From Aureobasidium sp. EXF-3400 (lineage: Eukaryota > Ascomycota > Dothideomycetes > Dothideales > Saccotheciaceae), in assembly GCA_024195585.1 (NCBI GenBank), contig SWBL01000003.1:310001-374000 (forward strand): a stretch of DNA of 64,000 nucleotides, in the 5' to 3' direction. A program made the translations under genes and the position numbers. Below the pieces are notes generated by a model, which was not told the DNA's origin, did no database searches, and worked only from the letters and a program-made list of their open reading frames with translations. Each line of letters opens with the position of its first letter. The stretch's first letter is position 1. Shown one piece after another: positions 4,580 to 64,000 of the stretch.

Positions 4580-5179
4580 TTACATAGTTGATGATAAATT
4601 GAGTATATATGTACAAACAGCCATACTCTTGAGCATCAAGTAGAGTTGATCTCTATATCTTTGATTCTTTTGCTAAGAGTTGCTCTACGAAAGGCCAGAA
4701 GGTGCACGGGCAGGTTACGACCGAAAATTGCCATGCGAACTTCTCTCACAATTGGCTCGACACGCCACAGTATTCGATCCGATAGTAACACCGATGGATT
4801 GAGAAACACATAAGAAGGGATTCAAGGTGTCCGACACGATAATTATGTATAGTGTTCGACGGCGATTAAGTTTCTTAGTCTTTAAAATTGCAGAAGGACT
4901 TAATCGAATTTAGTAGGGCGGTGCCCTCGGCTATATAGACTTGAGAGGCCTTGGAGCATTGAGCTCCGAGGCTTGGCAAAATAATCACATCTTGAAAAAG
5001 GTTGTATTGGGGACGACCCTGTCTTGAACGACCTCACCGCATCTCCAGACGCGTTTCAGCTTTCCCCTTTTCCCAATTCAAAACAATAAGAGTTCGGAAA
5101 GAGCAACATCTTGCTCCTCTCGTCGACTGACCGTCTCTTCTCCTCCTCAAGGTCGAACCAACATCATCCGTCACCGACA
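4580..5179. other. Intergenic; AT-rich stretch resembling an LTR remnant
   Basis: The 3' flank of the oxidoreductase and the upstream region of the channel gene. From about 4827 to 5030 the sequence changes character: it starts TGTCCGACACG, has an AT-rich middle with a TATATAGACTTG promoter-like box near 4930, then a GC-rich hairpin-prone stretch and GGGGACGACCC. This resembles the architecture of a fungal solo LTR, but no second copy, target-site duplication or coding remnant was found here. Confidence 0.3.
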
Positions 5180-45836: not shown

Positions 45837-47173
45837 ATGTCTTTGACTACTCCCACAGAACACAAATGGATCCTTGGTGACAAGTTCGACCAAGTGTACC
45901 CTCATCTCGAAGGCATTCAAGCATTATGGGAGAAGAAGTGGGCATTTCCCTGCTCAAAGTCCCTCTATCCTTTCCACGATGGCAAATTCGAGGACTTTGA
46001 ACCTGTTTTCAAGTCCCTGATCTCAAAGAACATCAACTCAGGCTACACAGATGAATACACTCGCGAGTTCGTCCCCACCGCCGAACGTCTCATCGAAGAG
46101 GCAGACAAACTCGTGTCTTCCGACAAGGATGCTGCTTCAGCCCTCTACCTCCGTGCCTGCACCGTCTATCGCATCGCTCGCTTCCCATACATTAACTCAG
46201 ACTACAAACGCGAAATCTACGAAGCACAAAAGAAGGCATACATCAAAGCCGCTAGTCTCTGGGATTGCCCAATTAAAGATGTCACCATTCCTCATACAGC
46301 AACAACCTCGGCCGATGTCGATTCTGTACCTCTCTATGTTCGCCTACCAAAAGACGCCTCCAAGTCCAAGCCTTGTCCTGCTGTCCTGCTTATGTGTGGA
46401 CTCGATGGACACAGACCAGACAACACAACCCGTAGCGACGAATTCCTCGCTCGAGGATGGGCCTCTATCATTGTCGATATTCCTGGCACCGCCGACTGCC
46501 CTGCCGACAGAAAGGACCCTGAAGCTGCTGAACGACTATGGACAAGCATCTTAGACTGGATGGCAGGAGAAGGTGTTTATGACATGAAGCGTGTCATCAC
46601 TTGGGGGTTGAGCGCTGGAGGTTACAATGCAGTACGTACATCGAGATGATCTACATCCAAGCACCGAATACTGACCCCTACACAGGTTCGTGCAGCACAC
46701 ACCCACTCCGACAGACTTGCGGGCGCCATCGGCCAAGGCGCAGGAACCCACCACTTCTTCTCCCGCGAATGGCTCGAAAAGGCACAGAACAAGGAATATC
46801 CCTGGAACGCTCTACCCGCTTTGACCGAAAAGTTTGGCTACAAGGACCATGATGACTTTATGAACAATGCCCAAGACACTTGGTCCTTGGTAAAGACTGG
46901 CGTTGTAAACATGAAGAGTTGTCGATTGCTGCTCATTAATGGAACAATCGATGGTCTGATGCCTATCGAGGACTCGATGCTCTTGAGCGAGTTTGGTTCG
47001 CCCAAGGAGATGAGGCTCATCAGTAATCGTCTGCATATGGGTAAGTTGTCCATTCTGATTATGTGACATGTATGGGAGCAGTTTTACTAATGCGTAATTT
47101 AATTCTAGGCTATCCCGAGGCCAACAGTTATGTATATCCCTGGATGGAACAGGTCATAGCATCGGTCAATTAG
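45837..47173 (+). CDS. ayg1: Ayg1-type alpha/beta hydrolase (polyketide chain shortening, DHN-melanin)
   Basis: Exons 45837-46631, 46686-47040 and 47109-47173 give 404 residues, the usual size for Ayg1. The catalytic triad is visible: Ser259 in the nucleophile elbow GLSAGGY, Asp354 in NGTIDGLMP and His382 in NRLHMGYPEA, where the last intron splits the Gly codon after HM. A helical N-terminal part (WILGDKFDQVYPHLEGIQ, YLRACTVYRIARFPYIN) precedes the hydrolase fold, as in the family. Ayg1 of Aspergillus fumigatus shortens the heptaketide YWA1 to tetrahydroxynaphthalene on the way to DHN-melanin. No polyketide synthase or reductase lies in the window, so the melanin role is inferred from homology only. 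Confidence 0.88.
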
Positions 47174-47965
47174 CAATATATATCAGCACTCTGGATCGTG
47201 TCACATCTGACTGCAGGTATACAAGGCATTTATGCGAAACCAAGCAGAGTCTCTCGAAATTCGTCGGTCTACCAGGCGCATACCCAATATAGAGACAATC
47301 GTAGATTTGCCTCCACTGGAGGACTCACAATCGAACAACCATTGTGTAGTTCTACATGTACCAAACTCATCCTTGCCTCACATCTACGAGATGATCTCAG
47401 GGGCAGTAATCCTTTATCTCCTCCAAGTTGCGTTCTCAAGATCATCGCTATAAACATGCAGAAAAGTCAGTGAGATCACGTCCGACCCATTGAGACAAAC
47501 TGTTTCACCAACTCTCATTGGAAGTCTTGAGAATCCATATTCCACTGTGCATTTTTAATCAAATCTCCATATCGTCTGGAGAGCTATGAGAAGTGGGAAA
47601 CAGGGGTCAAAAACCTCGTCTCCTTCGAACCAATCTTCACACAGCATCTGTGGCTGTATCAGTGTACAACTGTCGGTATATTCTGAGTCCACTAAAGAAG
47701 AGTTTCAGGTCCTTGTCTTGCACATGCATCTATTCTGATCGTCACGGGTCTTTTAGTCACCACTTGCCAATACACCCACGTTGAACGCACTGCACAAAAA
47801 AACAGATTAATAACATGATGAAGTCTTGATTTTATGCTCGGCCGTAAAGTAGTAAAGTCATGCTCAAAAGTGAAATCTCGATGGTTGTATGAGAAACGAG
47901 CGTGTGTCTGAAAAAATACGTATCTCAACGAACGCTGATGGTCAAAAGCAAGAGGGCAGAGTGAC
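47174..47965. other. Intergenic, no gene seen
   Basis: Between the 3' end of the ayg1-like gene and the 3' end of the Argonaute fragment. Only short frames, none recognisable. Confidence 0.55.
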
Positions 47966-48247
47966 TCAAACGTAGAAAGTCTTCTCGGTCAGTCTCTCGT
48001 GGACTCCCTGAGTCCACTCAGCCGTCTGAGCGTTGTACGCGGAACCGCTTGCGCTCTGGTTCTCGTTCAAGGTCGAGTAGAGATACATGCGTCCTCTCTC
48101 GCAAATCAGGTCAGCGTAGTATGCAGGAGGGCAAATTGAGACCGCCTTAGTGGCTCGATTAAATGCATGCCCACGGTTCCGCATCTGATACCCCACGTAC
48201 TTATCGGATGTGCCTTCTTGTTCTTCTCCATCTCCGCCGCCATCAGT
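47966..48247 (-). pseudogene. Detached C-terminal end of an Argonaute PIWI domain
   Basis: A frame open from 48247 to the TGA at 47968-47966 (93 codons before the stop). It contains FNRATKAVSICPPAYYADLI, the hallmark end of fungal (QDE-2-like) PIWI domains, and ends EKTFYV like Argonaute C-termini. No ATG suits a start, and nothing upstream on the minus strand encodes the rest of PIWI. Homology starts around 48215. The plus-strand PIWI fragment at 62.4-63.6 kb stops just before this part of the domain, so the two are complementary pieces. No premature stop is present in this piece. I infer that it was cut off by an inversion; a leftover of a second Argonaute copy is the alternative. Confidence 0.85.
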
Positions 48248-48608
48248 TTAACGCTAATCAACCAGCGAATCTAGTCAACATTGTGATTGCTTATTCTGAA
48301 TCTGGCAGTGCCGTTGATTAATCTCTGTTTGTTATCAGAAATACTAATCAACCACCGACCCACCATACATATGAGAAGTCATCAGGTTACTGCACCCACA
48401 AATCACCTCCCTCTTTCTCCTATAGGTACATATGGCTAGACGTGTAATGCAGCGTGACCAATCAGAAGAGATGATGGAGATAGGTTGTGATATACAGACC
48501 TGATGACTCCATCTTGGCCCCTTTAGCGTTACTTGTCATATCCTCGTAGACCCCGCGCTGATTCAACCGCATCCCCTTCTTACTCGCCAGCAATCTTATG
48601 CTGCGATG

Positions 48609-48777
48609 GAAGATGTCGTTGCCGGTGATGGAGGGCTTAACCGTCCTTTTATTACTAACAGAAGAAGGTTTAAACTAGGATGATGTCGTTACCATTCGAC
48701 AACCAGATTATCAAGGCTCCATAATCCAGCAGTGTTTCTTACTGCGCATGAAGATGTCGCTACTATTCGATAACCAG
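48609..48777. repeat. Three diverged short repeats at about 71-bp spacing
   Basis: A word of the form GA(A/T)GATGTCG(T/C)T starts at 48609, 48679 and 48750. The last two copies share about 28 bp (up to CGA(C/T)AACCAG) with differences that are mostly C/T transitions. The first copy matches only over the first dozen bases. Confidence 0.6.
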
Positions 48778-48847
48778 GAATAAAGAAGGAAACAATCACT
48801 CACGTTCGCGAGAGATAGGCTAGGGAATCATTAAAGAAGATCAACCG

Positions 48848-49181
48848 GGTCTGCAATTCTCTTCGGGATAGTTTGTTCTCCATCGTAAGATTCAGGGGTA
48901 TATATGATTCAGCCGACGGTGAGAAGCTTTAGGGGGTTCGTGGACCTGATCGTCTTATGTTTTCCGCCTGTGATGTCTGGACGACAGCTGCGATAACATC
49001 GAAGGTAGTCAGTCAGGTCTGAAATCCTCTTCGGGATAGTTTGTTCTCCATCGTAAGATTCAGGGGTATATATGATTTAGTCGATAGTGAGATGTGACGG
49101 GGATCTAAGAAGCCTTGGGGGGGATCGTGGACCTGATCGTCTTGTGTCTTCCGCCTGCGATGTCTGGGTGAGAGCTGCGAC
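48848..49181. repeat. Direct repeat, two copies of about 150 bp
   Basis: Copy A is about 48848-48993 and copy B about 49017-49181. Both contain CTTCGGGATAGTTTGTTCTC, a long shared stretch to GGGGTATATATGATT, and later TGGACCTGATCGTCTT. Copy B has an insertion of about 20 bp near 49095. Many differences are transitions (ATTCAGCCGACG against ATTTAGTCGATA), including CpA-to-TpA, which suits mild RIP. Confidence 0.85.
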
Positions 49182-49573
49182 GAGGCAACGCGAGGGACAC
49201 GGGTGTTGAAGTCATCGTAGTGGGCAATGCCGATGCTCCAGGTTTGGTGATGAGCAGGTCGATGTCGAAAGAGTCTTGGACGCCACGGTGGTTATATATA
49301 GATACTGCTGTTGGGCGGCGTAAGCGGAAATCGCATACTCGTGGCAAGGGAGAATCAACTATGTGAACAAAGGCTCAACGAAGAGAACGATCGAAGGGTG
49401 TGATGGTGTTGACATTCAAGATAATTCTGAGTAACATATAAAACGTAGCGTTGATTGCACTGCACTTCTTTATATAATTCGTTTCCTCATAGTGGCTTTG
49501 AATTACCATGCAAATACTTTTCAATTTATGGATTCTTTGACCACTCTCAAGGACATCATACAATATACGAAAC

Positions 49574-52516
49574 CTACAGCAGAGGCTTCTCCATAGGCGC
49601 AATGATGCCCTGTTTGACAACAACTCTGGGTCTCGTGTTGCGCTGGAAAGTCTCCTTCGTCGTCCACTCAGGACCAACAGGAACACGCAAACTCCTCTCA
49701 TACTGCTCTCTCTTCTCGAACTGATGAGGCAGTGTACTAGCCAAATACTTCTTACCCTTCCTTTGCTGGGCTTCCGAGATGATGACATTGTTGAGTTTGG
49801 CATCTTTGCGGTTTGCAGCCTTGACACCTTCTGTGACCTTCTTGTGCAAGGGGTTGTGAGCCATGCGTTTGTTTTGCTTTCTCGCTGCTTTGGAGAGACC
49901 ATCGCCGGTCCAGGAGCCCCAGCCGGGGAGGAAGGTCGATTCGACCTTGTCGCCTTCGTCTTCGACCTGAGCTTCCTTTTCGGCTTCGAATTCTACGGCT
50001 ACGTCGTCGCCGGCAAAGGCGCGTTGGTGGAAGAGGGCTTGCTTGTCCTTGGAGGCGAGCATGGGGTTTACTCTGTTGTCCTCTTCAGCATCAGCTTCTG
50101 CTTGGTCATTGTCGTACTTGACGGTTTCCCAGCCTTCGGTTGAGGGTGCTGCGGTTTCGTTGGCTGCGGGCTTTTGCTTCTTTGCCTGGGGCTTCTTTGC
50201 GGCAGCGGCAGGTTTCACTGCGGGTGCAGGGGCAGCCTTGGAGAGGTCGAGGATCTCCTCGTCAGCGACCTTCTTGTTCTTCTTCTTGCTCTTGGATGCG
50301 CCAGTCAACCATGCATTCTCCTCTGTCTCCTTGGGCTCGTCGACATCGGCGATCACCTTTTGGGCGTTTTGAAGGAAAGATCGTGACTTCTTCGACTGAG
50401 GAGCGGGCTTGGTGTCTGCTTGAGCACCGACATTGATCTGAGCTTCGGCTTCCTCTTCACGGTTGTCCTGTTCGTCCAAATCCTTGTTCTCTTCGAGCTC
50501 ACCACGAGGAGCAGCCTTGAAAGGATTAGCCGCGCCTTGCGTAGGCTTGGGTCCGAAGATGGCACGACCGACAGAGGCGTCTGCCTCTTCTTCGCTCTCA
50601 CCGTCCTCGTCAGCCAACTCCCGACGCAAGCTCTCAATGTCCTCATCGTTCTGAGCCTTTCGCGAGGCCTCAGCTCGGAGCATGAAAGCCATGCTGCCAA
50701 TCTTGGATTTTTCTCCATCTTTGGCACCGAGCTTGTCGATCTTCTTGGACAAACGTGCCTTTTCAAGCTCGTCGTCGTCGAGCTCCTCATCCTCGTCGTC
50801 GCTGACGCTGATATCGGAGTCGTCACTCTCACGGTCGTGAACATCCTTGCCCTCGATTCTCCTCCTGAGCTCCTCGTTGCGTCTGGCCATGTCGATCAGA
50901 CCCTCTCTGGCATCCTCGTCCCAGACAGAACGGTTTGACTTCTTCATGGCCTTTGACCACTTGCTGTCCTTGTGTTTGGTGCCCATTCTCTCCTCGGCAC
51001 GTCTTCTGTCCTGCTTCTCCTTCTCATCCTCGTCTTCAATGCCCTCGGCTACAAGGTAATCGCGTTCAGCGGCCTCGGCACGCTCACGCTCCTTACGATG
51101 CACACGACGGTAAGCCTTGGACTTGATCTTCTTGACACGCTTGGCCTTGACTTCTTCTCTGAAGAGCAATTCTCTTGCCTTGCGGAGCTCGGCACGTCTG
51201 GCAATGACTTCCTCGACAGGGATCTTGTTCATTTGCAGCTCTTCGAATTGTTGAAGTTGATCCTCCTCCTTTCCTTGCTTTTGCTTGTTACTGAGACCGC
51301 TCTCCTCGAGAATGTTCTGGATGGCACTTTCGAGTTCGTTGGCGGGCTTGTCTTGCTGGATGGGAAGCATCTTTTGGGTTCCGACAGCCTCGATGGCATT
51401 GGGGTCTGCGAGGGGGAATTGCAAGAACTCGGCTCTGCGGTTTTGAATGACGGTGTCGCGCCATCGGTCAAGAGTCTTCTTGGTTTCTTGAGTGGCAGCA
51501 GTTCTGTCCAGCTTGTCCTGTTGTCTTTTAGGGAGGGGAGCATCGAGCTTTCCAGGAATGCCTGAACGCTTGGTGGTCCTTTCAGCGGTGAGCAGTTTGA
51601 GCGACTTGCGAAGAGCGGGATCGGTAACGGTAGGTAGCAAATCGGAAATCTTGAGCTTCTGCGAGGCAGACAGGCCATATGCCGAAGGCTCTTGCGACTC
51701 GTGCGCATCCTGTGTACGTCCACCAATGCGCTTTTCCGGGTTGTCCTTGTTCAGCGATGCGACCAGATCCTGCAGCTTGGACAGCTTGGTAGCGTCGTCT
51801 TCCTCGTCGTCCTCTTCAGACTCTTCGTCCTCTGATTCTTCCTCTTCCTCATCGTCAGATTCTTCGTCAGAAGAGTCGTCGCCGTGCTTTTCCTCAGTCT
51901 GCATAAGATCGTCCTCGTTGTCCTCGTCGAGCATGGTGGCTAGATCGACACCCTCATCGCCAAAGTCGCTGGCCGAGTCCTCTTCGTCGCTATCGCCGCC
52001 TTCGTCCAGATCCATTTCCGAGGTAGGCTGAGGTCTCTTCTTCTTTTTCTTTGAAGGCCCGCTAGTCGAACTTCCTCTAAATGTGAAGCCTTCGAAACGC
52101 TCTTCGTCGCTCTCGCCAAAGGCTTCGTCACTGTCGAGGTCGCTGTCGCTTTCGTCGCCGATATGACCACCCATGCGCCACTCGTTGCCTTCGCTATCGC
52201 TTCCCTCATCCGTCTCTTCATCCAGTCCTCCTCTTGATCCAGTACCGGTATTCTTGGTCACAGTCTTTTGTTGCAATCGGCGAGCGTTGCTGGCATGTTC
52301 CTCATCGTCGTCGTCTTCCTCATCATCTCCGAGTCTTCTGCGCTTTTGACGGGGCTCTCCTACAGAATCGCCCAAACGGTGCTGGCGAACTTTGTATGTG
52401 TCTGGGGCGGAATGCGAGGCGATCGAGTAGGCGTCGAGTGTGCGCTTCTGAGACTTTTTGCGAGCATTTGTAGGTTTGGCGATGGCCACGCTCGAACGAG
52501 CGACGCGAGCAGGCAT
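49574..52516 (-). CDS. utp14: U3 snoRNP-associated protein Utp14 (small-subunit processome)
   Basis: A single exon of 980 residues. The N-terminus is basic, then a long acidic Asp/Glu/Ser region covers residues about 60-260. Family landmarks follow: KIKSKAYRRVHRKERERAE (residues about 465-485), SKWSKAMKK, and the C-terminal PGWGSWTGDG block (residues about 865-875) ending in VRVPVGPEW-like sequence before the tail. Utp14 acts in the nucleolus in early 18S rRNA processing and activates the helicase Dhr1. The gene starts 208 bp from the divergent MRPL27 gene, so these two ribosome-related genes (nucleolar and mitochondrial) share an upstream region. It lies inside the proposed inverted segment. 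Confidence 0.95.
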   Translation of the reverse strand: MPARVARSSVAIAKPTNARKKSQKRTLDAYSIASHSAPDTYKVRQHRLGDSVGEPRQKRRRLGDDEEDDDDEEHASNARRLQQKTVTKNTGTGSRGGLDEETDEGSDSEGNEWRMGGHIGDESDSDLDSDEAFGESDEERFEGFTFRGSSTSGPSKKKKKRPQPTSEMDLDEGGDSDEEDSASDFGDEGVDLATMLDEDNEDDLMQTEEKHGDDSSDEESDDEEEEESEDEESEEDDEEDDATKLSKLQDLVASLNKDNPEKRIGGRTQDAHESQEPSAYGLSASQKLKISDLLPTVTDPALRKSLKLLTAERTTKRSGIPGKLDAPLPKRQQDKLDRTAATQETKKTLDRWRDTVIQNRRAEFLQFPLADPNAIEAVGTQKMLPIQQDKPANELESAIQNILEESGLSNKQKQGKEEDQLQQFEELQMNKIPVEEVIARRAELRKARELLFREEVKAKRVKKIKSKAYRRVHRKERERAEAAERDYLVAEGIEDEDEKEKQDRRRAEERMGTKHKDSKWSKAMKKSNRSVWDEDAREGLIDMARRNEELRRRIEGKDVHDRESDDSDISVSDDEDEELDDDELEKARLSKKIDKLGAKDGEKSKIGSMAFMLRAEASRKAQNDEDIESLRRELADEDGESEEEADASVGRAIFGPKPTQGAANPFKAAPRGELEENKDLDEQDNREEEAEAQINVGAQADTKPAPQSKKSRSFLQNAQKVIADVDEPKETEENAWLTGASKSKKKNKKVADEEILDLSKAAPAPAVKPAAAAKKPQAKKQKPAANETAAPSTEGWETVKYDNDQAEADAEEDNRVNPMLASKDKQALFHQRAFAGDDVAVEFEAEKEAQVEDEGDKVESTFLPGWGSWTGDGLSKAARKQNKRMAHNPLHKKVTEGVKAANRKDAKLNNVIISEAQQRKGKKYLASTLPHQFEKREQYERSLRVPVGPEWTTKETFQRNTRPRVVVKQGIIAPMEKPLL

Positions 52517-52724
52517 GATTGTTTGTATGAAATAATTCCAAAAAATGCAAGGCTCGAAAAGTTCAAAAGTCTTGTTAGAAAGAGTTTGGTAGCGGCAATT
52601 TCGCCAAGACTGCGGGCTAGGAATTGCCCAAAGTTCGCCGCAAAGGCACCTCCGAGTCGCAATTGCGGAACAGAGACAATCAGCACCAGCAGCATCGTCA
52701 ATTTCATCTCAGCTCGTCGCCGTC

Positions 52725-53082
52725 ATGTTTACTCCTACCGCTTCTCTGGGACGCGCTCTCCGTCGCCTCGCCCTTACCACCAAGCAGGCTGGCAAGGACT
52801 ACTACAAGGGTACCGGCTCAGGTTCCATGGGTCGTCACACCAAGTTTGGTGGTTACCGTATCGACTGGTCAAAGGTCCGCACCTATGTCGTTCCTAACCT
52901 CACCGACTTCCACGTATGTCTCTACATTAGCATCTCACGATTGCAATCGACTAACACCCCGCCAGTTGAAGCCCTTCGTCGCCGCAAACATCGACAAGCC
53001 TACCAAAACCCACGAATTCGCTGCCTCTGTCAACGGAAAAATGTACCTCGACGCATGGAAGAGCCAGGGCGGCGACATCTAA
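52725..53082 (+). CDS. MRPL27: Mitochondrial large-subunit ribosomal protein MRPL27 (mL41)
   Basis: Exons 52725-52913 and 52966-53082 with a 52-nt intron give 101 residues. The sequence begins MFTPTASLGRALRRLALTTK, a basic presequence-like start, and holds the conserved DYYKGTGSGSMGRHTKFGGY and VRTYVVPNL segments of the mL41 family. The end (YLDAWKSQGGDI) is also typical. It belongs to the mitochondrial ribosome large subunit. It is divergent to utp14 with 208 bp between start codons. Confidence 0.93.
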
Positions 53083-53369
53083 GCATTCTGTTTCGCCAGT
53101 TTCCTACCTTTTTCGTTACATCTGCCAGGCTTTACTTACGATACCCATGGACTGCATCTTTCGTCTTCCTACAACTCCTGTACATTACATTTTTACATCC
53201 TCTTGGAAACCATACAATCACTGAACAATTTCTTTGCGTGTCTAACAAATGAATGTGTTCGTTGCTATGTGCTATGCTGGTTATGTATATTCGTTCCAGT
53301 ACTCCAGAAAGAATGACCAGCATCCCGTGTCCGTCCAGCGGCTCATGAATCAAAATTCAACTCCTGACC

Positions 53370-56198
53370 TCAAATCTTCGAATGGCCGTGGCCTCTATGA
53401 CGATGGACAACTCTAGTCGCTTGCTCTCCATCCACCTGCGGTCCCTCTATCGACCCTTCTGTAATATTTCCTTCGGCATCTGATCGCTTGGCCGCACTAG
53501 CTGGAGACCCGCCCATTGCTGCCGAGTAGGTCAAATACCATGTCAAACTTGCTCCGCCATCGAGGTAAGCAGGATTGAACTTGGAATCTGCGAAAAAGGC
53601 ATAGCTGGCAGCTGGCTGGATAGTCGCAAGGTTTGCGTACAGGATACCTCTCCAACCACCGTCCACATTGGCGCGGCCATTGGAGAAGAAGGTGTTCCAC
53701 TCTTCCGTGACGAATTTCTGAGTGCGTACGTATGCGCTGAATGGAAACCCAGCAGGGATCATATGGATGCCATGGATGAATTCTGGGTTGCTGCCAAAGT
53801 ATGTCTGAAGTGAAGAATTAGCAAAGCACCTTGAAGTATAGAACTCTATAACATACCGTATATTCTATCTTATTCTCGAACAGCTGCTCAATGTCAGTAA
53901 CTTCTTCCTGGTAGGATATGACTTTATACTTACAACTCCGCTGACTTTGTTGCCGATGAAATTGGCAGGTTGAACCTTGTTGTCCGAGGTGTACAGGAAG
54001 TAGTTCTGCATAGATCTTGCTTGAATGGCCAGCATGAGGTTACCCCTGGCTTCCATGGCCTTGTCACCGGTTGTACGTCCCCACATCTTGATTGCATAGA
54101 TCGACAAGTTGTCCTCGGAAGAACTCTCTTCGTCTTTTCCATCACCACTCTCAAATAGTCCTTTAGCCCATGAGTGACCGTGGAAGAAGTCAAAGGATCG
54201 AGAGAAAGGAAAGTATGCATCCGTGGTGACAGAGTTGGCATAATCGCGGACCAACGTGTTGACCCATGCCTTGTTCGTGCCTTGAGTCAGCCAGTTGGGG
54301 TCCAAGTATCCAATCACAGCAGCCGCGTAAACAAAGTATCCATAATGGAAGTGATGATCGTTATAATAAGTATTGCCGAAATCCAGGCCAGAATCCCCGG
54401 TTTGATAAGTGCCACTGGAAACAACTCCACCCCAAGACGATTCGTAGACAAGAGGAAGAATCTGCTTGTTTCGAATGAATGTATCAAAAGCAGTCTTCAA
54501 CTTTTGCAACCCGCTGATAGCCAATGTTGCATTCTTACCAACATCATGCACTGCATAAGTAATAGCGGCGAATTTGGCGAGTGCTTTGCCAGAGTAGTAC
54601 ATTGAGTTGAGATTCGATTGCTTCTTCATGTCCTGGCTGAGTTCACTTTCTCCGGCTTTATTGATCAACTTCATAGCTGCAGCAGAGACTTTGCTGACTC
54701 CTCGGAGAGACGGTGACCATGGGGCGAATCCCATGTCTATTGGCAAGTTTTGCTCGAGTAATGTCCATGAGTTGCCAACGACGCCCGTTGCCATACCTTT
54801 GGTCGTGGTCTGAAGCTTCACATTTGTCACTCCGCCAGAGGTTAGACTCGATACGTGGTGAGGAAGTGCGAACTGCAGTAGTGTGCGGTTAGCAACGCCT
54901 TGCTTCGTCCAGGTCAGCTTGTATGTTCCGGCGGTGCCTGATACGGATCCAGATACTGTGGCAGCGACTGGATATGCGCCTGCTGCTTCGTCATAGACGG
55001 CCTCCGCACCAACAGAGGGTACTTTCGCAACTTGAATGAATCCTTGGAACTTAGGAGCTCCTTGCAACACGCGCACATTGGTCAAGGTGAAGGAGTTGAC
55101 CGGATATCCAGGCTGAGAGGTTGTGACATAGATATTCCATGATGTGCCGTCAGCAAGTTTAGCTTGATATTTGAAAGTTGAGCCAGAAGGCATGCGTCCA
55201 ACGTAGGTGACACTGATGAAGGAAATTGCGCTCTCGACACGTGGTGTACCGTTGCTGTAAACGCCAGTCACAAAGCCCATTCCCTGGATCAATGGGAAAG
55301 TGATGGTAGGAGCAGCACCGGGACGTGCTAGGAGGTTGACATTGGCCGAGAATGCATCCAAAGAATCCACCGTAAGCTGAGTTGTTGTGTTCAATTCAGA
55401 TGCAGAAAGCGTGAGCGACTGGATACCGATCGGGTTGATGAAGTATCGAGCCGGGTCTCCAGGACCGAAAGCTAGCTGTGATCTCCCAATGTGACTGACT
55501 GCCAGGCCGTAACTTTTGAGCACGCCTGCCCCTTTCGCCCAGCTTAAGGAGTAAGGATGTGTGAAGGTAGAGGAAGACTGAGAACCTAGGAAGAAATTGG
55601 CATAGAACTTGTTCGTCTGCAATTTCTTCTTTTGTGGTGCGATCATGGAGTGAGCGACAGGGTGGTCGGTCCTTGAGGAGATCTGTGACGGAGGCGGACC
55701 ACTTGCGAATGCCACAAAAACATTATCTACAGACATTGTCGAAGCCAGAGGAGTGATATTCGGATGTGGTAATGATGTGCTGGCAGTGTTGATGAGGGAC
55801 AGTGTAGTAGAAGCGGAAGCTACCGAGGTAGGAAAGGGCTGCACAGAGCTCTTGCCAGAAGTCTCCAAAGAAGTGATAACAACGCCCGAAGTTTGAGGCT
55901 CGACTTTTGAAGAAGCCATCTGGATTGCAGATTGACTAAGAGAGGACAACCGACTGGTCGTTGAGAGTGAGTAGGATGAAGTATCAGGTCGCCTGGTGGA
56001 CAGTACAGGCGTAAAACTGCTAGTAGAGGAGACCATAGACCTTGAGTATGTCGTCGACTGTGTTGACGAACTCTTGGTATCTATCCCACAGTCGTAGTAG
56101 TATTCTCCATCATCGGCGTTGGCAAGAGGCGCAGCAGTAGTGAGGTGTGCTAGAAATGTGTTCAAGAAGAACATAAAACAAAGGATAGGACCACCCAT
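53370..56198 (-). CDS. Secreted endo-1,3-beta-glucanase, glycoside hydrolase family 81
   Basis: Exons 56198-53934, 53883-53857 and 53804-53370 give 908 residues; the middle exon is a 27-nt micro-exon encoding LFENKIEYT between introns of 50 and 52 nt. The N-terminus has a signal peptide (LCFMFFLNTFLAHLTTAAP). A Ser/Thr-rich stalk covers residues about 35-170, likely O-glycosylated. The GH81 domain starts with TNKFYANFFLGSQ and includes NTYYNDHHFHYGYFVYAA and the acidic catalytic-region motif ESSSEDNLSIYA. It cleaves beta-1,3-glucan in the cell wall, as in septum breakdown, or in food glucan. The C-terminal tail is short and polar with no GPI signal that I can see. Confidence 0.94.
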
Positions 56199-57116
56199 AA
56201 TGAACGTGTTGGCTGATCGTCTCGCAAAGTCACCAGAGGAATCAGGGTTATATAAATATTCGAACGCCTAGTAACACCCAAGAGAGCAGTCGCTTGGCTT
56301 ACGGCCGTTTTAAGGGGGTGGGTCAGAGGGCGCAATAGGCGTCGAAGAGTGAGATTTTACGGACGTCCTGTGATTAAAAGGTACTTTTCCTTTCTGCAAC
56401 TTACTGAGTGTCGTCAAGAGAGTTGAGTAAAGGGGGGTATAGTGATCATGCAAACGTGACTTGCCTTGCGTCCCAAAAAGGCTTAGAAAGAATGTTCCTG
56501 GCGGAAGAGCCTAGCAATTCACGACACGAGTGCAAGAGCACAGGATGAGCTTGAATGGTAGATGTGATCGCTTTAGCGCATAGTCTTACATGGACCAGAA
56601 ATCTAGACAAAGGGCAGTGTCCGAGGTGGCTCCTAAGGAATGCTGGAGCATCCCTTGAAAGTATTAGGGAGGCCGGGGCTCAAAGCGAAGTCGATAGGAA
56701 GGCTCTGAGAGCCGCGTGCCCCTCAGCTGTCTCAAAATGTTGTTGCACAAGAACAGCCCACACTCTATTCCTCATCCTATTCCTACTACTAACCAACCAA
56801 TGAGTACAACTTGTGTAACTCGATCCTCTTCATGATGCAGTCAAAAACCATAGCACAATGAGAAACAGTCTACACCCTCGATGACCTTACTCTTGCAAGA
56901 ATCACCAAGCACCCGCCCCTAGAGCAGATGGTTCGGAGGCCTGTTCTTACAAACCTCGGAGACCTGGTCTCCACGAGAGAACTCGTCATCGCGACCCTGG
57001 GCCACGGAATGCCTGTCGCTCAACAAAGAGAGGCGATCTTGACTCCAAGAGTCAAGTTGGTTGCTGTTCTTACAACAAACCGAAGACCTTGTCTTCTAGA
57101 AATCTGCTCTTGCAGA
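56199..57116. other. Intergenic; decayed short repeat
   Basis: Upstream region of the GH81 gene and 3' flank of the GATA-like gene (both minus strand). A TATATAA box on both strands near 56249-56256 lies about 55 bp before the glucanase ATG. Two similar stretches, from 56943 (GTTCTTACAAACCTCGGAGAC) and from 57068 (GTTCTTACAACAAACCGAAG), look like an old duplication about 125 bp apart. Confidence 0.5.
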
Positions 57117-59309
57117 TCATTGTTTTTTTTTGCCCATGACAATGCCATTGTCACTCCTCCATCTACGAGCGCATTGGTCGTGCATGGCTCCAATCGAAGT
57201 GTACGATATCTGATTGGCCTTGATATTGTTGCTTACGTAGAAGCAAGAGTCGTAAACGCATGGGACATCCAGGTCCTGTTCGCGAAGCTGCTCTACAGCA
57301 GCTTTGTTGATGGGGTCAGAGATCTTCCTCAATCTCGTCTCAGTAGCATGGGCGAGATTGGGCAACTGGCCACTGTATTTAGACTGCCGATTGCACGATG
57401 AACAAAGGTACATCCCGTCGTCTCTCAGGACAGTATGTCTAGTATCCATGTCAGTGTCTTGACAATGATCGCATGCAAGTTCCCAACCACAGGCCAGGGC
57501 CACACTCTTGAAATGATGAAGCTTCTGTAATCGAGCCTCTTCCTCTGATAGTGGCATAGACACACCAGCCAAAACCTTGGCCAGGCATGCAGGACAGAAG
57601 AGTTGGCCTGGGTATATCTCAGCTGAGCTCATCTTGGGATAAAAGATAGTCTTTCGATTCTTGACAGGAATCAGTTCAGACTCGGGAACCTCACAGCCCG
57701 AGCATCCTGGATCGGAGCCAACTTGTGCTCGGAGGTCTTTGTTCATCTTGCGCTTCTCTATGCGCGCTGCCGTTTCAGCGACCTTGACCTCGTCTGGCAG
57801 GACACCGTCGAATCTAAGACCGTGGTAGCAATTATGGCAGATGAATCCACCCATGGGATCTGAGCCGTCAAACAGAATTCTCACTCCCGAAGGGAGCGTC
57901 ATCACACCGCATGCTGAGTTTTTGCAAGGTGACTTGAAGCCAGCGGCAGGGTTTCTGAACCCTTGCTGCAAGGTCCAAGCGGCATTCATGCCTGTCCAGG
58001 TCACTTCGGGCAAAGCAAGCTTGCTACGGACACGCTCATATGTTTCGACACATGCGATACTTCGCCATACTGTGTACGTGGTGACATTCTGCATGGAGTG
58101 CAACCAGAGTTGCCAAATACCCTCGTAGATAATCAACCAAGCACTATCGATACCTTCGAAGAAGGTGTTGAATACCTTGAAGTCCGACTCGACTCCATCA
58201 CGACAGGCCTGGTTATAATGACGAGAGTTCTGGTGAACCTCTGGGAGGCTCTCGGGTATGTGCTTGTCAATAATAGCGGTATGCTCCTTTTTGCGCTTTC
58301 GAAGACAAATCGTACTTCCTGCATAGGCGTCGGCCTTCATACTGTTGGCATACCTGATGTTGCCAGTTGCGAAATTACCGTAATTTCCAGGGCAATCAAA
58401 ATCCTCTGGATCATCTGGTAGGCCGAGCCAGTCTTCTTTCGACCATACCTTCTGAATTGTCACTTCTTGCGTTTCACGAGGTGTATAGGCACAGAAAAAT
58501 TTCACACGATCTTCAATCTTTGCTTTTGTAAGCACACGCCAGATTGGGAGTGTCATTGGGCGCTCATGCGCGGGCATCTCAAAAATTCTATCAGACCACC
58601 ACAGAGCCTCTTCTTGGAACAAATTGATGGTCCTTCGAGTAAGGTCCGAGAACCTGCGAATGACCTCGTCAGCTTCGAGGTCGATATCTGGAATGGGGTA
58701 TACAATAGGTACCCAAACCTTCTCTTCGTCTTCCTCTACGTCAAGAGCTGTACCCTCGACGTCAGGACCGGGATTGAATTCCTCGGCCAACTCTTTAAGA
58801 GTGTCATCATAGTCGAACTCGAAGTCCGACTCTTCATCGTCGACGACCTCACCATCGTTGACGTAGTCTTGGTCTTCAACGACCTTCTGCTTGCCCTGCG
58901 CCTTTGCGGAGAGCTTCTTTCTGCCCGACTGGACGGAGGGCACTTGCTCCTCTTCGTCCGGAAGCTCGTCGCGGTATGAGCGCTTGGACGAGATGCGGGA
59001 ACTGCGCCTTGGTTCAGAGGGCTGCTCAAGCACCTCGGTGTCCGCAGACACGACGCGTTTCGAGTCGCTGCCACTGGCATTGACTCTTGACGAACTCAAT
59101 GGTGGCTGCTGAAGCAGCGACACCTCGTCGGTTGAAGTCTCGTTCTTACGAGACTTTGCCATTCTCACCCGCTTCTGAGCAGGTTGCAGACTACTCTCTT
59201 GAGTTGTGTCTGCAAACACATCGTCCTCTGGGACTTCTGTGTAGTTCGGCCTAGCCGAAACCCTCTTGGGTCGAGAATCTGACACCTCTTTGGAAGTGGT
59301 GTGGCGCAT
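57117..59309 (-). CDS. Large cysteine-rich protein with four GATA-like zinc-binding modules
   Basis: A single exon of 730 residues from the ATG at 59309 (MRHTTSKEVSD); the frame is open upstream, but that part lies in a GA-rich promoter and lacks a good start. Residues about 1-250 are charged and disordered with basic patches. The C-terminal half has four C-x(2-4)-C ... C-x2-C units, near 463-505 (CKNSAC ... CHNC), 533-580 (CSGC ... CPAC), 612-645 (CDHC ... CSSC) and 678-717 (CVYDSC, ending DQC). These resemble GATA-type fingers without a normal GATA DNA-contact loop. It is probably nuclear. I know this type only from fungal hypothetical proteins. Confidence 0.78.
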   Translation of the reverse strand: MRHTTSKEVSDSRPKRVSARPNYTEVPEDDVFADTTQESSLQPAQKRVRMAKSRKNETSTDEVSLLQQPPLSSSRVNASGSDSKRVVSADTEVLEQPSEPRRSSRISSKRSYRDELPDEEEQVPSVQSGRKKLSAKAQGKQKVVEDQDYVNDGEVVDDEESDFEFDYDDTLKELAEEFNPGPDVEGTALDVEEDEEKVWVPIVYPIPDIDLEADEVIRRFSDLTRRTINLFQEEALWWSDRIFEMPAHERPMTLPIWRVLTKAKIEDRVKFFCAYTPRETQEVTIQKVWSKEDWLGLPDDPEDFDCPGNYGNFATGNIRYANSMKADAYAGSTICLRKRKKEHTAIIDKHIPESLPEVHQNSRHYNQACRDGVESDFKVFNTFFEGIDSAWLIIYEGIWQLWLHSMQNVTTYTVWRSIACVETYERVRSKLALPEVTWTGMNAAWTLQQGFRNPAAGFKSPCKNSACGVMTLPSGVRILFDGSDPMGGFICHNCYHGLRFDGVLPDEVKVAETAARIEKRKMNKDLRAQVGSDPGCSGCEVPESELIPVKNRKTIFYPKMSSAEIYPGQLFCPACLAKVLAGVSMPLSEEEARLQKLHHFKSVALACGWELACDHCQDTDMDTRHTVLRDDGMYLCSSCNRQSKYSGQLPNLAHATETRLRKISDPINKAAVEQLREQDLDVPCVYDSCFYVSNNIKANQISYTSIGAMHDQCARRWRSDNGIVMGKKKQ

Positions 59310-59660
59310 GGTTGATTGAACGATTGTGATGCGAGTGCAAAGATGCAGGAAAGCGGTGATCGAACAATGCAAAATCGGTTGAGAAACAAAACTCGGTCGA
59401 TGTGTGGGAAAAAGAAAGAGAGAAAGAAAGAAAGCGGAAGGCGAGTTTTGGGTGCAACGCCAGCTTGGGTGCGCCTTCCCATGTTGCACCTGCCTCATTG
59501 CTGAGCGGCAGCGAGGTGCGTGTGCATGGACCACCCGCAGAGATACTTACGCGCTTTTGGGGTTTCTGTCTTCTCTCTTTTTCACACAAATCAAATCAAC
59601 ATGCGTAAGGGTTCCCGGTGTGCTTGTGCTATAGTGGAACATGATATTAACTCTTCACAG
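59310..59660. promoter_or_regulatory. Region between GATA-like gene and Argonaute pseudogene
   Basis: About 350 bp upstream of both. A GA-rich simple repeat (AAAGAGAGAAAGAAAGAAAG) lies at about 59411-59434, just upstream of the GATA-like start. An ATG at 59601 followed by GTAAGG could be the remnant of an Argonaute first exon. Confidence 0.4.
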
Positions 59661-61869
59661 CTCGTCAAGAGGTTCAAGACCGTGGCCTGCCCCTTAGGGG
59701 AAAAAACGTAAGTACCTTGATCTCCTAGCACTCTTCCCCATCTGCACTCTGTTATTGTCTGGACTGGATTGAGTATCAAACCGATACTTGCTACCCGCCC
59801 TTCAACTTTCGAAGCACTCTGGATCTCCTGGCATTCGCATCTTTCTGTAAGTCTCACCAAAACTTTCTATGTGATTCCAGCAGTCAGTCACTTACATGGA
59901 ACAGCAGTCAAGGCAATGCCCCTCGGCCAGATGCAACAATCCAAGCTCTCGAGGATGCTCGTGTCCAGAAGATCGCCGGCCAAATCATTGAGCAATTCCC
60001 TCTTGGCCCCGGCCATGGCACCAGACATGCCTCAATCGTGCTGTGTGCCAGCCACCTCGATCTCAAGACAGCATTCGATACTGGCAAGCAGAAGACTTCC
60101 CAATTCCGCTATGTGGTTGGCACGGCTGGTGAAAAGCCCAGCAAACCCAAGATGCGTCTTCTCGCGGCCAATCTCATCAAGGAACCCATCTTCACCGATT
60201 GCCAGGTCGCGACAGACTATTCGAGCCTGATCGTGACTACGAAAAAGCTGGACCTTGGTCCTCCAGACCGCAAGCAGGGCAAAATTGAGGTCATCGATCC
60301 CGCACTGCCTGCTTTCCAAGGTCCCGACAACACTCAACAAGCCCAAGAAGCCAGAAACCGTCGAACCATTGGTTGCGAACTGTCCAAGACCGAAGAATTC
60401 AGCCTGACTGATCTCGTCCGCTCTTTACAAGCCGTTCAATCAGGGACTTCGTTCGCCCAGAGTGATGTTGTTCAACTACTCAACATCATCGTCTGTGAGA
60501 ATCTCAACAGCATGAATGACGTCCACCTTCCTGGAACCCGCACCTTCCTGCCGCCAGCAACCCTCACTGGTACACTCAACATCCACCTTCCCTCTCAGAA
60601 CCCGCACCTTCCTGCTGTCAGCCACGCTCACTGGTACACTCAACGTTCACCTTCTCCGTCAAAGCTCCCACCTTTCTTCTGCCAGTAACCCTCACTGGTG
60701 CACTGCCAGTGTCCACTATCTTGGTCAGAACAATCACCATCCTGGTGTCAACTCGCAGTTCATGGAGAGGGCCGATGTCACCGGCGGTCTTCAAGCTTTG
60801 CGTGGGTACTACGCTAGTGTCCGCACTCCATCAAACGAGACCTCGGTCAATCTTCACGTCACAAGCGCCGCTTCTTCCAAGCATTCACCGTCTATGAGTC
60901 TCGTCTCCGGATACGCCGGCGGTTACGCTGGTCAGCCTCCGAGACCACACGACTTGGTCAGGGCTGAAGCGTTCATTCGCATGCTTCGTGTCAGAACAAA
61001 CTACCTCAAGGCTCTTGACAAGAACGGCAAGCCCAAGAAGGATGTTCAGGGACGCCCTCAAACTGTGCTTGGCTTCAGAAGCATTGTTGGTCTGGCTCCT
61101 CGTCCTCAAAAGAATGGCGGCGCCAAAGCTGTCACCTTCTCCTGGACGGATCCGAAAAACCCTCAGTCTGCTCGTACAGTCTCTATTTCCGAGTTCTTCA
61201 AGGCTCGGCACGGCATGACTCTTCAGCATCCAGAGTTACCTGTTCTCGACGTGGACATTGTGAACGACCCCTCGTATCTCTCTGTCGAGCTGGCGACAGT
61301 CCTACCTGGTCAACATGTCAGACGCTTACTCCCTGGGAGTCGAACGGTACACATGCTTCGCTTTGCTGCCAGACCATCACATCTCAATGCAGAATCCATC
61401 ACGAGAACTTCGGGCAATGATTTAGAAATCTCGGGCGCTAACAGATTACAGCAGGACAACAAAGTCAACAAATACTCGAACGACAAGAAGCCACCTACTC
61501 GTTATGACAAAAAGAAATCCCACGATGAGAAGTTACGCGACCAGGTACGTTTTCTGTAATTTCTCTAGCAGAATCAAGTCATTTTTTTGACAAAAATAGA
61601 TCCTTCAGGAGGTGATCGACAATGGCGGTCAAGTTCCCGACAAGTTGAAAAGCCAAGTCGTTGCTGTCAGAAAGAAGACAACAGCACAATCTGCTCTAGA
61701 GAAAGAGCTCCAAGAAAGAAACCCTCAGCTCATCCAAGAATTGAAGGATGTAAGAAAGGAGATCAAAGATCTGGAGAAGAAACGCGACGCTCTTCAAAAG
61801 GAGCTTGACGATAACAAGGCTGCTCTTCGCCTTATTCCTACTGGCGATATCGATGATGTTGATATGTGA
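59661..61869 (+). pseudogene. N-terminal and PAZ half of a QDE-2-like Argonaute, frameshifted and with a foreign helical tail
   Basis: Exons 59661-59707 and 59905 onward are compatible in phase, but the start codon is not resolved. The first frame (to 60688) holds Argonaute N-terminal features (VATDYSSLIVTTKKLDLG; SDVVQLLNIIVCENLNSMND). At 60521 a 190-bp tandem-repeat insertion shifts the frame. The next frame continues with GGLQALRGYYASVRTPSN, AEAFIRMLRVRTNYLKAL and a PAZ domain (SISEFFKARHGMTLQHPELP, SYLSVELATVLPGQ). Where MID should follow, a 58-nt intron (61543-61600) leads to a Lys/Glu-rich coiled-coil tail ending at 61869. From the ATG at 60516 one uninterrupted frame could encode about 430 residues (PAZ plus tail), so a shortened product is possible. 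Confidence 0.8.
60521..60710 (+). repeat. Tandem repeat insertion in the Argonaute coding region
   Basis: Three diverged units, 60521-60580, 60581-60644 and 60645-60710 (60, 64 and 66 bp), share CCTCACTGGTACACTCAAC-like and CACCTTCCT-like words. Each starts with (G/A)T(C/T)CAC. The total of 190 bp is not a multiple of three. The sequence on both sides joins cleanly at GTCCAC if the three units are left out, restoring the Argonaute frame. Confidence 0.85.
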
Positions 61870-62015
61870 AGAGGTTTTCTTTGATGAAAAACCGAGGAAA
61901 ATATCGCTAAACTACTGCATATTCGAAGGATTGCTTCTATGCTTTCATACTATTAGCTCTACATCTTGCTAATATTGGCTCAAATCTTACTCATTTTGCT
62001 CTCTTTTCGCTGAAA

Positions 62016-62360
62016 AATCAAGTCATTCTCTTAATTTAATATGTCTTTACATTAATGATTGTGGAATTCTAGATAATTTGTAACTATGAGTGAGGTCTGT
62101 CTATAAGAGCCTAGTAAGAAAATCATATTTTAATTATTTTATTAGAGAAAGACAGCCTTTAATCATTATGACTAACCTTTAGATCATCATGAAATTGCAA
62201 AATACTAGAAACCAGATCGACGATCTGGAGGAATAACGTAGCACTCTTTAAAGAAAGCTTGATAATAATAGGATATCTCTTTATATCATTTCTTTCGATT
62301 ATATGCATATAGTCCTATAATGAGGACTTTTTTTAGAAAAAAAAGTCGAGGAAAAGAGAT
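62016..62360 (+). repeat. RIP-like, AT-rich second copy of the helical-tail exon
   Basis: This region lines up with 61572-61906 at a steady offset of 444-454 bp. Anchors are AATCAAGTCATT (61572 and 62016), GATCTGGAG (61768 and 62222) and GAGGAAAA (61894 and 62348). Between anchors most differences are C-to-T and G-to-A (for example CTTCAAAAGGAGCTTGACGA against CTTTAAAGAAAGCTTGATAA). The frame is destroyed by many stops. The pattern is what RIP does to a tandem duplication, though the first copy seems hardly changed. Confidence 0.8.
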
Positions 62361-62371
62361 ATAAGTCTAGT

Positions 62372-63595
62372 AAATACTAGGTATTGCCAACGCCCAAGGT
62401 CTACTACGGAAATAAAGAGCTTTAGGCTAGAGAAGGATCTTAGAACTTGATGAACGTCAAGTTTTCTAAGCCCGGCTCGATTAGCATGTGGGCTTGCGTT
62501 GTTCTTAACTACAACGACCAGCGTGGCGAGGCACTGCTGTAGCAGGGTAGTCAGTTTAAGGGCGAGAATGTTCTTGGTGTAGATGGCCTTATAGCAGCTC
62601 TTGAGCGCCACCTAGGAACATACGGAGTGCGTATGGGCCAGCGTGTCTAAACGCAGCACTTCAAAATCCCCCGTCCAACTGAGCAGGGTCAGAGCCGCGT
62701 AGACATTGATCGAAAGCTTGACGAGACGTTCTACAAGGCTTCGGTGAAGGGAATTGAGCTTCTTTTCATTGTCCTCAAAGAAGCTGACAAGTGGCTTTAT
62801 AGCCGCATCAAATATTTCGGCGATGTCAAGCACGGCGTTTAGACTGTCTACAGTGTAGGCTCGAAGATCCAGAAGCCTAAGGGTCAAAATATGTATCTAG
62901 GAAATCTGGCTCTTAAATTCAACATCAAGGGCGGCGGCTTCGTTCACACGTAGCGCGATATGTACCCTCTCGACGGCAAGAATACCTGCGTGCTCGTCGG
63001 CATTGATGTCACTCACCCTTCTCCCGGCTCTGCTAAGGGCAGCCCCAGTATCGCCGGTGTCGTGGCGAGCGTAGACGAGCAGCTATGTCAATGGCCTGGC
63101 TCGCTACGTAGCCAGAAAGGCAAGGAAGAGATGGTTCAGGGCCTCACGGAGATGATGCTTGAGCGCCTCGAGCTCTGGCGCAAGATCAACAGGAACTTAC
63201 CTAGCAAGATCATCATCTTCCGCGACGGAGTCTCTGAAGGACAGTGCAACCTTGTTCTCGACCAGGAGCTTCCACTCATTCAGAAGGCCTACGAGAAGCT
63301 CTACGGTGGTTCCGAGAAATGGCCTAAAACCACAATCATAGTGGTGGGCAAGAGACATCACACTCGCTTCTATCCCACAGATAACAAATCCATGGACCAG
63401 AGAACTGGTAATCCTATGCCAGGAACTGTTGTCGACCGCGGAGTTACTCCGCATTATCTCTGGGACCTCTTGGTCCAGGCGCACAAGGGCCTACAAGGAA
63501 CCGCCAGGCCAGCCCATTACGTCGTCATCAAGGACGAATCCCTGGAATCCTTTGTTCACGATATACAAGTAAATATGACGGACTGGCCGTTGTGA
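62372..63595 (+). pseudogene. Argonaute MID-PIWI part with RIP-type stop codons, C-terminus missing
   Basis: One continuous frame without indels encodes MID and most of PIWI: SKPGSISMWACVVLNYND, then GIDVTHPSPGSAKGSPSIAG with the first catalytic Asp, and IIIFRDGVSEGQ with the second. Stops are at 62423, 62441, 62540, 62648, 62840 and 62951, and one more at 62378 at the edge. Five sit where a Gln is expected (CAG or CAA to TAG or TAA) and one (62441) where Trp is expected in GSWN. All fit CpA-to-TpA on one strand or the other. The frame then runs clean to 63595. Argonaute similarity ends at about 63568, beside a GTAAAT donor-like site, before the conserved ATKAVSICPPAYYAD segment, which is found at 48.2 kb instead. 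Confidence 0.88.
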
Positions 63596-63806
63596 GTAGT
63601 AGATCAGAAGGCATCAGATAGCTATAACATCAGTCCCTGATTAATCATACTATCAAGGTAGCACCTCGCTGTGCACTGCTTATCATAATAAACATTTAGC
63701 AAGCATCGCACTTTCAGAGATGAAGTGATAAGAAAGATGCCTCTCGGATACGACTATATACAGTACTTTGTAGAATTAAGAGTGTCATTAAGCGTGAAGC
63801 ATTCGT

Positions 63807-64000
63807 CTACTGGAAGCGCTTCTCGGCAGCCTTCCAGTTGATGACATCCCAGATGGCGTTGAAGTACTCGGCCTTCTTGTTCTGGTACTGGAGGTAATAG
63901 GCGTGCTCCCAAGCGTCAACACCGAGGATGGGTCTGAATTGACCAACGACGGGGTCCTGGTTTGCGTAGGTTCTGATCTGGATGGCACCAGTCTGGGTGT
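63807..64000 (-). CDS. SOD2: Manganese/iron superoxide dismutase, C-terminal part (partial)
   Basis: The gene enters from the right edge and ends with the TAG at 63809-63807; 63 complete codons are visible before it. [19 protein letters not shown] carries the last two metal ligands (Asp and His of D-x-W-E-H). The tail [13 protein letters not shown] is typical of mitochondrial MnSOD. The enzyme converts superoxide to hydrogen peroxide and oxygen. Its start, and therefore any targeting peptide, lies outside the window. The proposed right inversion breakpoint lies within the 240 bp before its 3' end. Confidence 0.95.

Follow-up and report, generated by a model that had tools for sequence, protein, structure and literature searches.

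We analysed a stretch of 64,000 nucleotides of Aureobasidium sp. EXF-3400 (contig SWBL01000003.1, here C3, positions 310001-374000; hereafter the window) that holds an Argonaute gene of the class of Neurospora QDE-2 in two pieces facing in opposite directions. The gene was very probably cut by one of two overlapping inversions that appear to separate this locus from its homeologous counterpart on another contig (C134) of the same assembly, which comprises 53.4 Mb in 717 contigs. The two pieces are complementary, and the Argonaute gene that they once formed appears to be dead.

The body of the gene lies on the plus strand and comprises the N domain, PAZ, MID and most of PIWI. The tail consists of the last 65 PIWI codons and the stop codon, lies on the minus strand (47966-48163, delimited by alignment to relatives) and reads from 48163, beginning FNRATKAV, to its stop at 47966. 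A distance of 15.4 kb separates the pieces. With unmatched ends trimmed, the match of the body to intact relatives ends at 63559 (...FVH), and in the four relatives shown five residues lie between this end and the start of the tail, with no overlap. Without trimming, BLAST on one relative (P0003) carried the body to residue 984 and began the tail at residue 985, an exact abutment. An earlier note on this DNA had placed MID-PIWI on the plus strand and the last stretch of PIWI on the minus strand without overlap; the tiling on intact relatives confirms this, and the ends that it gave for the pieces (63568 and 48215) are close to the measured 63559 and 48163. The PIWI part up to the cut (62954-63559, plus strand) was delimited by PF02171, the relatives and an alignment to QDE-2. 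PF02171 matched within 62954-63595 on the plus strand (E-value 5.4e-48, 164 bits, profile positions 77-259 of 302). The frame stays open to 63592, while relatives match only to 63559, and six residues are lacking shortly before that end. By itself, the ORF (open reading frame) that holds the tail (47966-48247, minus strand) matched no Pfam family. Against the C-terminal 65-67 residues of intact Argonautes from Aureobasidium, the tail reaches 92% identity (best 92.3% over 65 aa), and MID-PIWI is up to 79.5% identical to its nearest relatives, which are Aureobasidium and metagenome proteins.

The domains of the gene have decayed unequally, as described below, which could be taken to mean that the pieces come from different Argonaute paralogues. 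We consider this highly improbable. The tiling is near-exact, and the same Aureobasidium proteins are among the nearest relatives of both body and tail. Moreover, a six-frame search of the genome, whose counts are lower bounds for large families, found only four PIWI loci (the window, C134, C47 and C137), and the C137 gene prefers other Argonautes whereas the window PIWI prefers QDE-2.

C134 (121 kb) is collinear with C3:313481-410411 (97 kb) in 31 blocks of at least 100 bp, with 66-85% identity by block. Twenty-nine of these blocks share one orientation (minus), and only the tail and utp14-MRPL27 are in the plus orientation. Read in the direction of C3, the order on C134 is ayg1, GH81, an 809-aa ORF, Argonaute (body and tail together), MRPL27, utp14 and SOD2, whereas in the window it is ayg1, tail (flipped), utp14 and MRPL27 (flipped), GH81, the 809-aa ORF, Argonaute body and SOD2. 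The two copies agree in the orientation of GH81, the 809-aa ORF and the Argonaute body and differ at all four block junctions. At the DNA level the tail matches C134:42237-42402 with 79% identity, and the body matches its homeolog at 66%. The earlier note had proposed looking for SOD2 next to utp14 and for ayg1 beside an intact Argonaute. The first arrangement is found in the homeolog; in place of the second, ayg1 on C134 adjoins GH81, not Argonaute. The homeolog is not a pristine reference, because its GH81 is shortened and its Argonaute broken. That Argonaute is unsplit, but its PIWI core has been replaced by a coiled-coil insert and stops occur inside the match, so that the two Argonaute copies differ in how they broke. 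The GH81 gene on C134 (48398-48949, about 550 bp) is about 2.1 kb shorter than its counterpart in the window (54162-56795, about 2630 bp) and looks truncated.

A signed-order search for the shortest inversion path between the window and C134 gave an inversion distance of 2 and one shortest path, and the flipped segment lies between collinear flanks, the mark of a chromosomal inversion. On this path the stretch from GH81 through the whole Argonaute flips, followed by the stretch from inside Argonaute to the utp14-SOD2 spacer. The 15-kb inversion of 48.2-63.6 kb claimed in the earlier note survives as one of the two steps; alone it is insufficient, and a second, overlapping inversion is required. 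A single inversion was rejected by the distance of 2, and no single transposition, plain or inverted, reaches the window order. According to the two-step path, one inversion, from GH81 through the whole Argonaute, would have moved the gene uncut, and the other, of about 48.2-63.6 kb, would have broken inside PIWI and in the utp14-SOD2 spacer. The cut must be derived, because relatives carry the uncut gene. The uncut inversion could have happened in either lineage, the path itself having no direction. The intermediate order on the path runs ayg1, Argonaute, 809-aa ORF, GH81, MRPL27, utp14, SOD2 and is exactly the one reconstructed in the earlier note, which amounts to one polarity of the two-inversion history: an ancestor with ayg1 beside an intact Argonaute, a single cutting inversion in the window lineage and a separate, non-cutting one in the A. 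melanogenum-like lineage. Each end of the path might be the derived one, but nothing favours this polarity over both inversions in the window lineage, and we regard it as quite possible, if not quite probable.

The four junctions could be narrowed to intervals. The first, between the ayg1 side and the Argonaute 3' flank, is 47168-47738 (BLAST follows the ayg1 side to 47167 and the 3' flank from about 47739); a second copy of these approximately 570 bp was not found in the genome. The second, between the Argonaute cut and utp14, is 48164-49501. The third, between the MRPL27 and GH81 flanks, is a homology-bounded 71 bp (53194-53264), into which the MRPL27 side extends as far as 53262 (reached by 0 of 100 shuffles); permissive scoring also takes the GH81 side back to 53192, and the join is possibly near-blunt at 53262/53265. 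The fourth, between the Argonaute cut and the SOD2 side (63560-63738), leaves about 180 bp before firm SOD2-side homology, which permissive scoring carries weakly to 63588. Given 717 contigs and two similar subgenomes, mis-joins are conceivable at such places, but an assembly error is very hard to credit here: the four junctions, all on one contig, agree with two exact balanced inversions, and the flanks are collinear on either side; there are no N letters in 46001-64000; and, the 66% match of the body to its homeolog aside, no second copy of interval 1 or of the body was found.

Similarity among the junctions was assessed in 40 local comparisons (10 within the window, 6 within C134 and 24 between the two), each set against 100 plain shuffles. 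No inverted similarity was found between the window junctions (J1 to J4), each of the 10 comparisons being reached by at least 14 shuffles, and none was found within C134, where none of the 6 comparisons was reached by fewer than 21. Between window and C134, 5 of 24 comparisons were reached by 3 shuffles or fewer. One of these, J3 against the MRPL27-Argonaute spacer on the plus strand (0 shuffles), prolongs known homology. The others, J3 against the same spacer on the minus strand (1 shuffle), J4 against that spacer (0), and J1 (3) and J2 (2) against the utp14-SOD2 spacer, are matches of about 16-20 bases that lie outside the expected place and are taken as chance. Inverted repeats as the cause of the inversions were rejected by these shuffle comparisons. 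The breaks were probably repaired by end joining, which is more likely than recombination between repeats because the comparisons revealed no inverted repeats there.

Interval 2 holds relics of other loci. PF14791 matched within 48462-48674 (E-value 6.7e-10), and the 750 bp from 48537 to 49287 contain pieces of a DNA polymerase X gene, presumably POL4, with one piece out of order; an open copy of this gene lies on C118. The sources of the scraps are C118:5049-5140, 4787-4947 and 4650-4696, together with C16:16446-16581, at 69-87% identity. An 84-nt duplication (48841-49092) lies among the relics at the breakpoint. The POL4-like and C16-like scraps, with their one misplaced piece, and the clustering of four junctions within 17 kb would suit a single multi-break repair event, in which one cell suffered four breaks and rejoined the ends in a different order, capturing scraps at one join. 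However, two inversions suffice, both copies contain all six blocks once each (even if the homeologous GH81 block is about 2.1 kb shorter), and the scraps are diverged and could predate or postdate the breaks. We therefore judge such an event unlikely.

Apart from its division into two pieces, the window gene carries lesions that the earlier note does not mention, so the gene may already have been dead when the inversion cut it. No one continuous frame runs through to the C-terminus; a frame change and six stops interrupt it in addition to the cut. The N domain lies in a first frame (59729-60688, plus strand; PF16486 ArgoN, E-value 2.8e-9, residues 122-255), and L1 and PAZ, which occupy 60516-61420, lie in a second (60516-61559, plus strand; PF08699, E-value 2.2e-6; PF02170, E-value 1.2e-5). 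A 64-nt tandem repeat in three copies (60534-60725, plus strand) sits at the changeover between the two. MID (62384-62950, plus strand), recognised by alignment to relatives only, has in-frame stops at 62423, 62441, 62540, 62648 and 62840, and a sixth stop follows at 62951; together with PIWI it makes up a third stretch of the body (62384-63595). To measure decay, the mean identity of 11 relatives to one another was subtracted from their mean identity to the window gene. The difference comes to -17.7 points in N, -17.3 in PAZ, -6.0 in MID and -4.2 in PIWI, and the tail stands at +0.4; the PIWI and tail values were computed with unmatched ends trimmed, and untrimmed they are -7.8 and -20.4. The 5' half may have decayed first, or it may evolve fast. 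Such uneven decay would not date the cut, which could have come before or after the other lesions.

Several points weigh against two overlapping inversions that cut a gene now decaying as a whole. The tail has no excess divergence, its mean identity of 86.7% standing beside 86.3% among intact pairs, and the unequal decay of the parts is not accounted for by a dead gene simply decaying as a whole, although 65 residues are few. The same order would also result from a single multi-break event. In the window, the homeologous utp14-SOD2 spacer has no consistently placed counterpart, so that this inversion end is bounded rather than seen. Lastly, a scan of viral and genome contig collections with the nearest utp14, for an outgroup gene order that would polarise the non-cutting inversion, yielded no locus. 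Among the 120 matches listed for each of Argonaute and utp14, at least eight relatives pair by source and by the length of the longest contig (18331, 65393, 94332, 96455, 293852, 553934, 1096765 and 2321667), where the contig is the longest of its cluster only and unpaired matches were not counted against the pairing. This suggests that Argonaute and utp14 are old neighbours, with no indication of their order.

Between PAZ and MID the window gene contains a coiled-coil insert (cc1, 61430-61869, plus strand), identified from ORFs and comparison, which ends in a stop. The insert on C134 is located differently, inside PIWI (L008 5419-5141), and an intron-like gap is present in both. At the protein level the insert was found only in the window and C134 within this genome, and at the DNA level only in the window; on these grounds we rejected a multicopy mobile element. 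Comparison with 104 candidate proteins of 118-375 aa (longer proteins lay outside the search) gave no family member at an E-value of 1e-3, Pfam gave only weak coiled-coil matches below every cut-off, and among 120 Argonaute homologues nothing was better than an E-value of 0.99. A decayed, AT-rich second copy (cc2, 61995-62355, plus strand) follows, and its alignment score of 107 compares with at most 38 among 100 shuffles; it differs by 49 C>T/G>A and 14 T>C/A>G changes. Repeat-induced point mutation (RIP) of this copy was rejected, as the C-to-T changes are not biased towards CpA (changed, with both strands summed: CpA 13/37, CpT 15/54, CpC 11/22, CpG 9/21). The RIP composite index is -0.30 in cc2 and +0.11 in MID (TA/AT 1.22), and it exceeds zero in 13 of 254 500-bp windows across the 64 kb, two of them at the MID/insert region (62251 and 62501).

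The neighbouring genes were checked against Pfam, which confirms the names utp14, GH81, MRPL27 and SOD2 (the last by its C-terminus) given in the earlier note. Relative to the homeolog, utp14 (49574-52510, minus strand; PF04615, E-value 1.2e-204) and the open frame holding MRPL27 (52593-53249, plus strand; PF09809, E-value 4e-17) are flipped. The GH81 glucanase gene (53370-56267, minus strand; PF17652 and PF03639 in 53865-56267) and the 809-aa ORF (57117-59546, minus strand), the latter delimited as an ORF and by comparison with C134, have the homeolog orientation, and the SOD2 C-terminus lies in the right flank (63807-64000, minus strand; PF02777, E-value 1.3e-21). The ORF called ayg1-like matches the FrsA-like esterase family, which is compatible with that label, and the label GATA-like for the 809-aa ORF found no support, as it gave only weak matches to domains of unknown function and no Pfam zinc finger at an E-value of 0.01.

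The class of the window gene is indicated by its closest solved relative: among 40 solved sequences its PIWI best matched Neurospora QDE-2 (2yhb, E-value 4.9e-51). The domains N, L1, PAZ, MID and PIWI occur in order, with ArgoN and ArgoL1 above the Pfam cut-off and PAZ, which scored 25.7 bits, short of the 28.8 required. Of the best 120 of 1174 relatives, most are complete Argonautes that have both PAZ and PIWI; a few are partial, and those with named organisms are from fungi. The motifs GIDVTH, FRDGVSEGQ and AHKGLQGTARPAHY are present in the body and align with QDE-2; their D, D and H are, we assume, the slicer catalytic residues. No protein is possible across the lesions, and the window gene is presumably not a working gene.

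The C47 and C137 Argonautes have open frames, with N, L1, PAZ, L2 and PIWI above the Pfam cut-offs; in each of the two, MID falls slightly short. Among solved structures the C137 protein prefers plant and animal Argonautes, and by these relatives it is assigned to another class than QDE-2; the C47 protein reads like it, the structure comparison having covered C137 only. The genome also has four Dicer-dimer matches and eight matches to RNA-dependent RNA polymerase (RdRP) on six contigs. One RdRP homologue (C64:83032-84948) has five in-frame stops in its profile match, which introns or decay could explain. No intact gene of the QDE-2 class is present in the assembly, though one may lie on a missing contig. 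Because both the window copy and the second copy on C134 are broken, this fungus probably has no working Argonaute of the QDE-2 class, and the loss would be covered, if at all, by the second class with its two open copies. In A. melanogenum clusters, among the matches listed (120 for each gene), there are 32 QDE-2-class Argonaute sequences versus 62 of utp14; the gene may be patchy in that species, and annotation, the length filter or the extent of the listing could give the same ratio.

The utp14 protein of C134 is 99.9% identical to an A. melanogenum protein, whereas that of the window is 93.4% identical to the same protein, 93.7% to Aureobasidium sp. EXF-10727 and 96.4% to a metagenome protein; a cross with another species therefore looks likely. 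The locus and the second Argonaute class are each present twice in the assembly, and the two locus copies differ by about 15-34% in DNA over aligned blocks. Compared at this locus, the genome fits a hybrid whose parents were A. melanogenum and an unsequenced Aureobasidium species. One could imagine that both hybrid parents lost the QDE-2 class separately because its loss eases clonal-hybrid life (or life with resident RNA viruses), that the second class was kept, and that the cut is a frozen snapshot of this process; we think this doubtful.

As a gene loss, this case is ordinary; what stands out is how legible its history is, together with the double breakage in an apparent hybrid. Loss of a gene cut by rearrangement is usually visible as absence only; here the route of loss can be read because the pieces, the four junction intervals and the unsplit homeolog share one genome. 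Among the papers listed, titles and abstract openings gave no account of this loss or of a fungal Argonaute cut by inversion. Should other strains, too, prove to have lost the QDE-2 class twice over, hybrid black yeasts would offer a natural test of the role of this Argonaute beside Dicer, RdRP and the other Argonaute. As summarised in PMC9535773, the black yeasts A. melanogenum and Hortaea werneckii have haploid genomes of about 25 Mbp and many diploids with diverged subgenomes; the diploids are termed intraspecific hybrids there, and diploid H. werneckii assemblies are described as much poorer than haploid ones. EXF-3400 resembles these diploids in its two diverged subgenomes and differs in its apparent cross with another species. 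Argonaute has also been lost in Cryptococcus deuterogattii, Ustilago maydis and Saccharomyces cerevisiae, according to PMC7763443; in our case the QDE-2 class alone is broken, and Dicer-dimer, RdRP and second-class Argonaute genes remain. Compared with Neurospora QDE-2 and the Piwi-domain proteins of Aureobasidium, the window gene is of the same class, but it is split, changed in frame, interrupted by stops and burdened with an insert.

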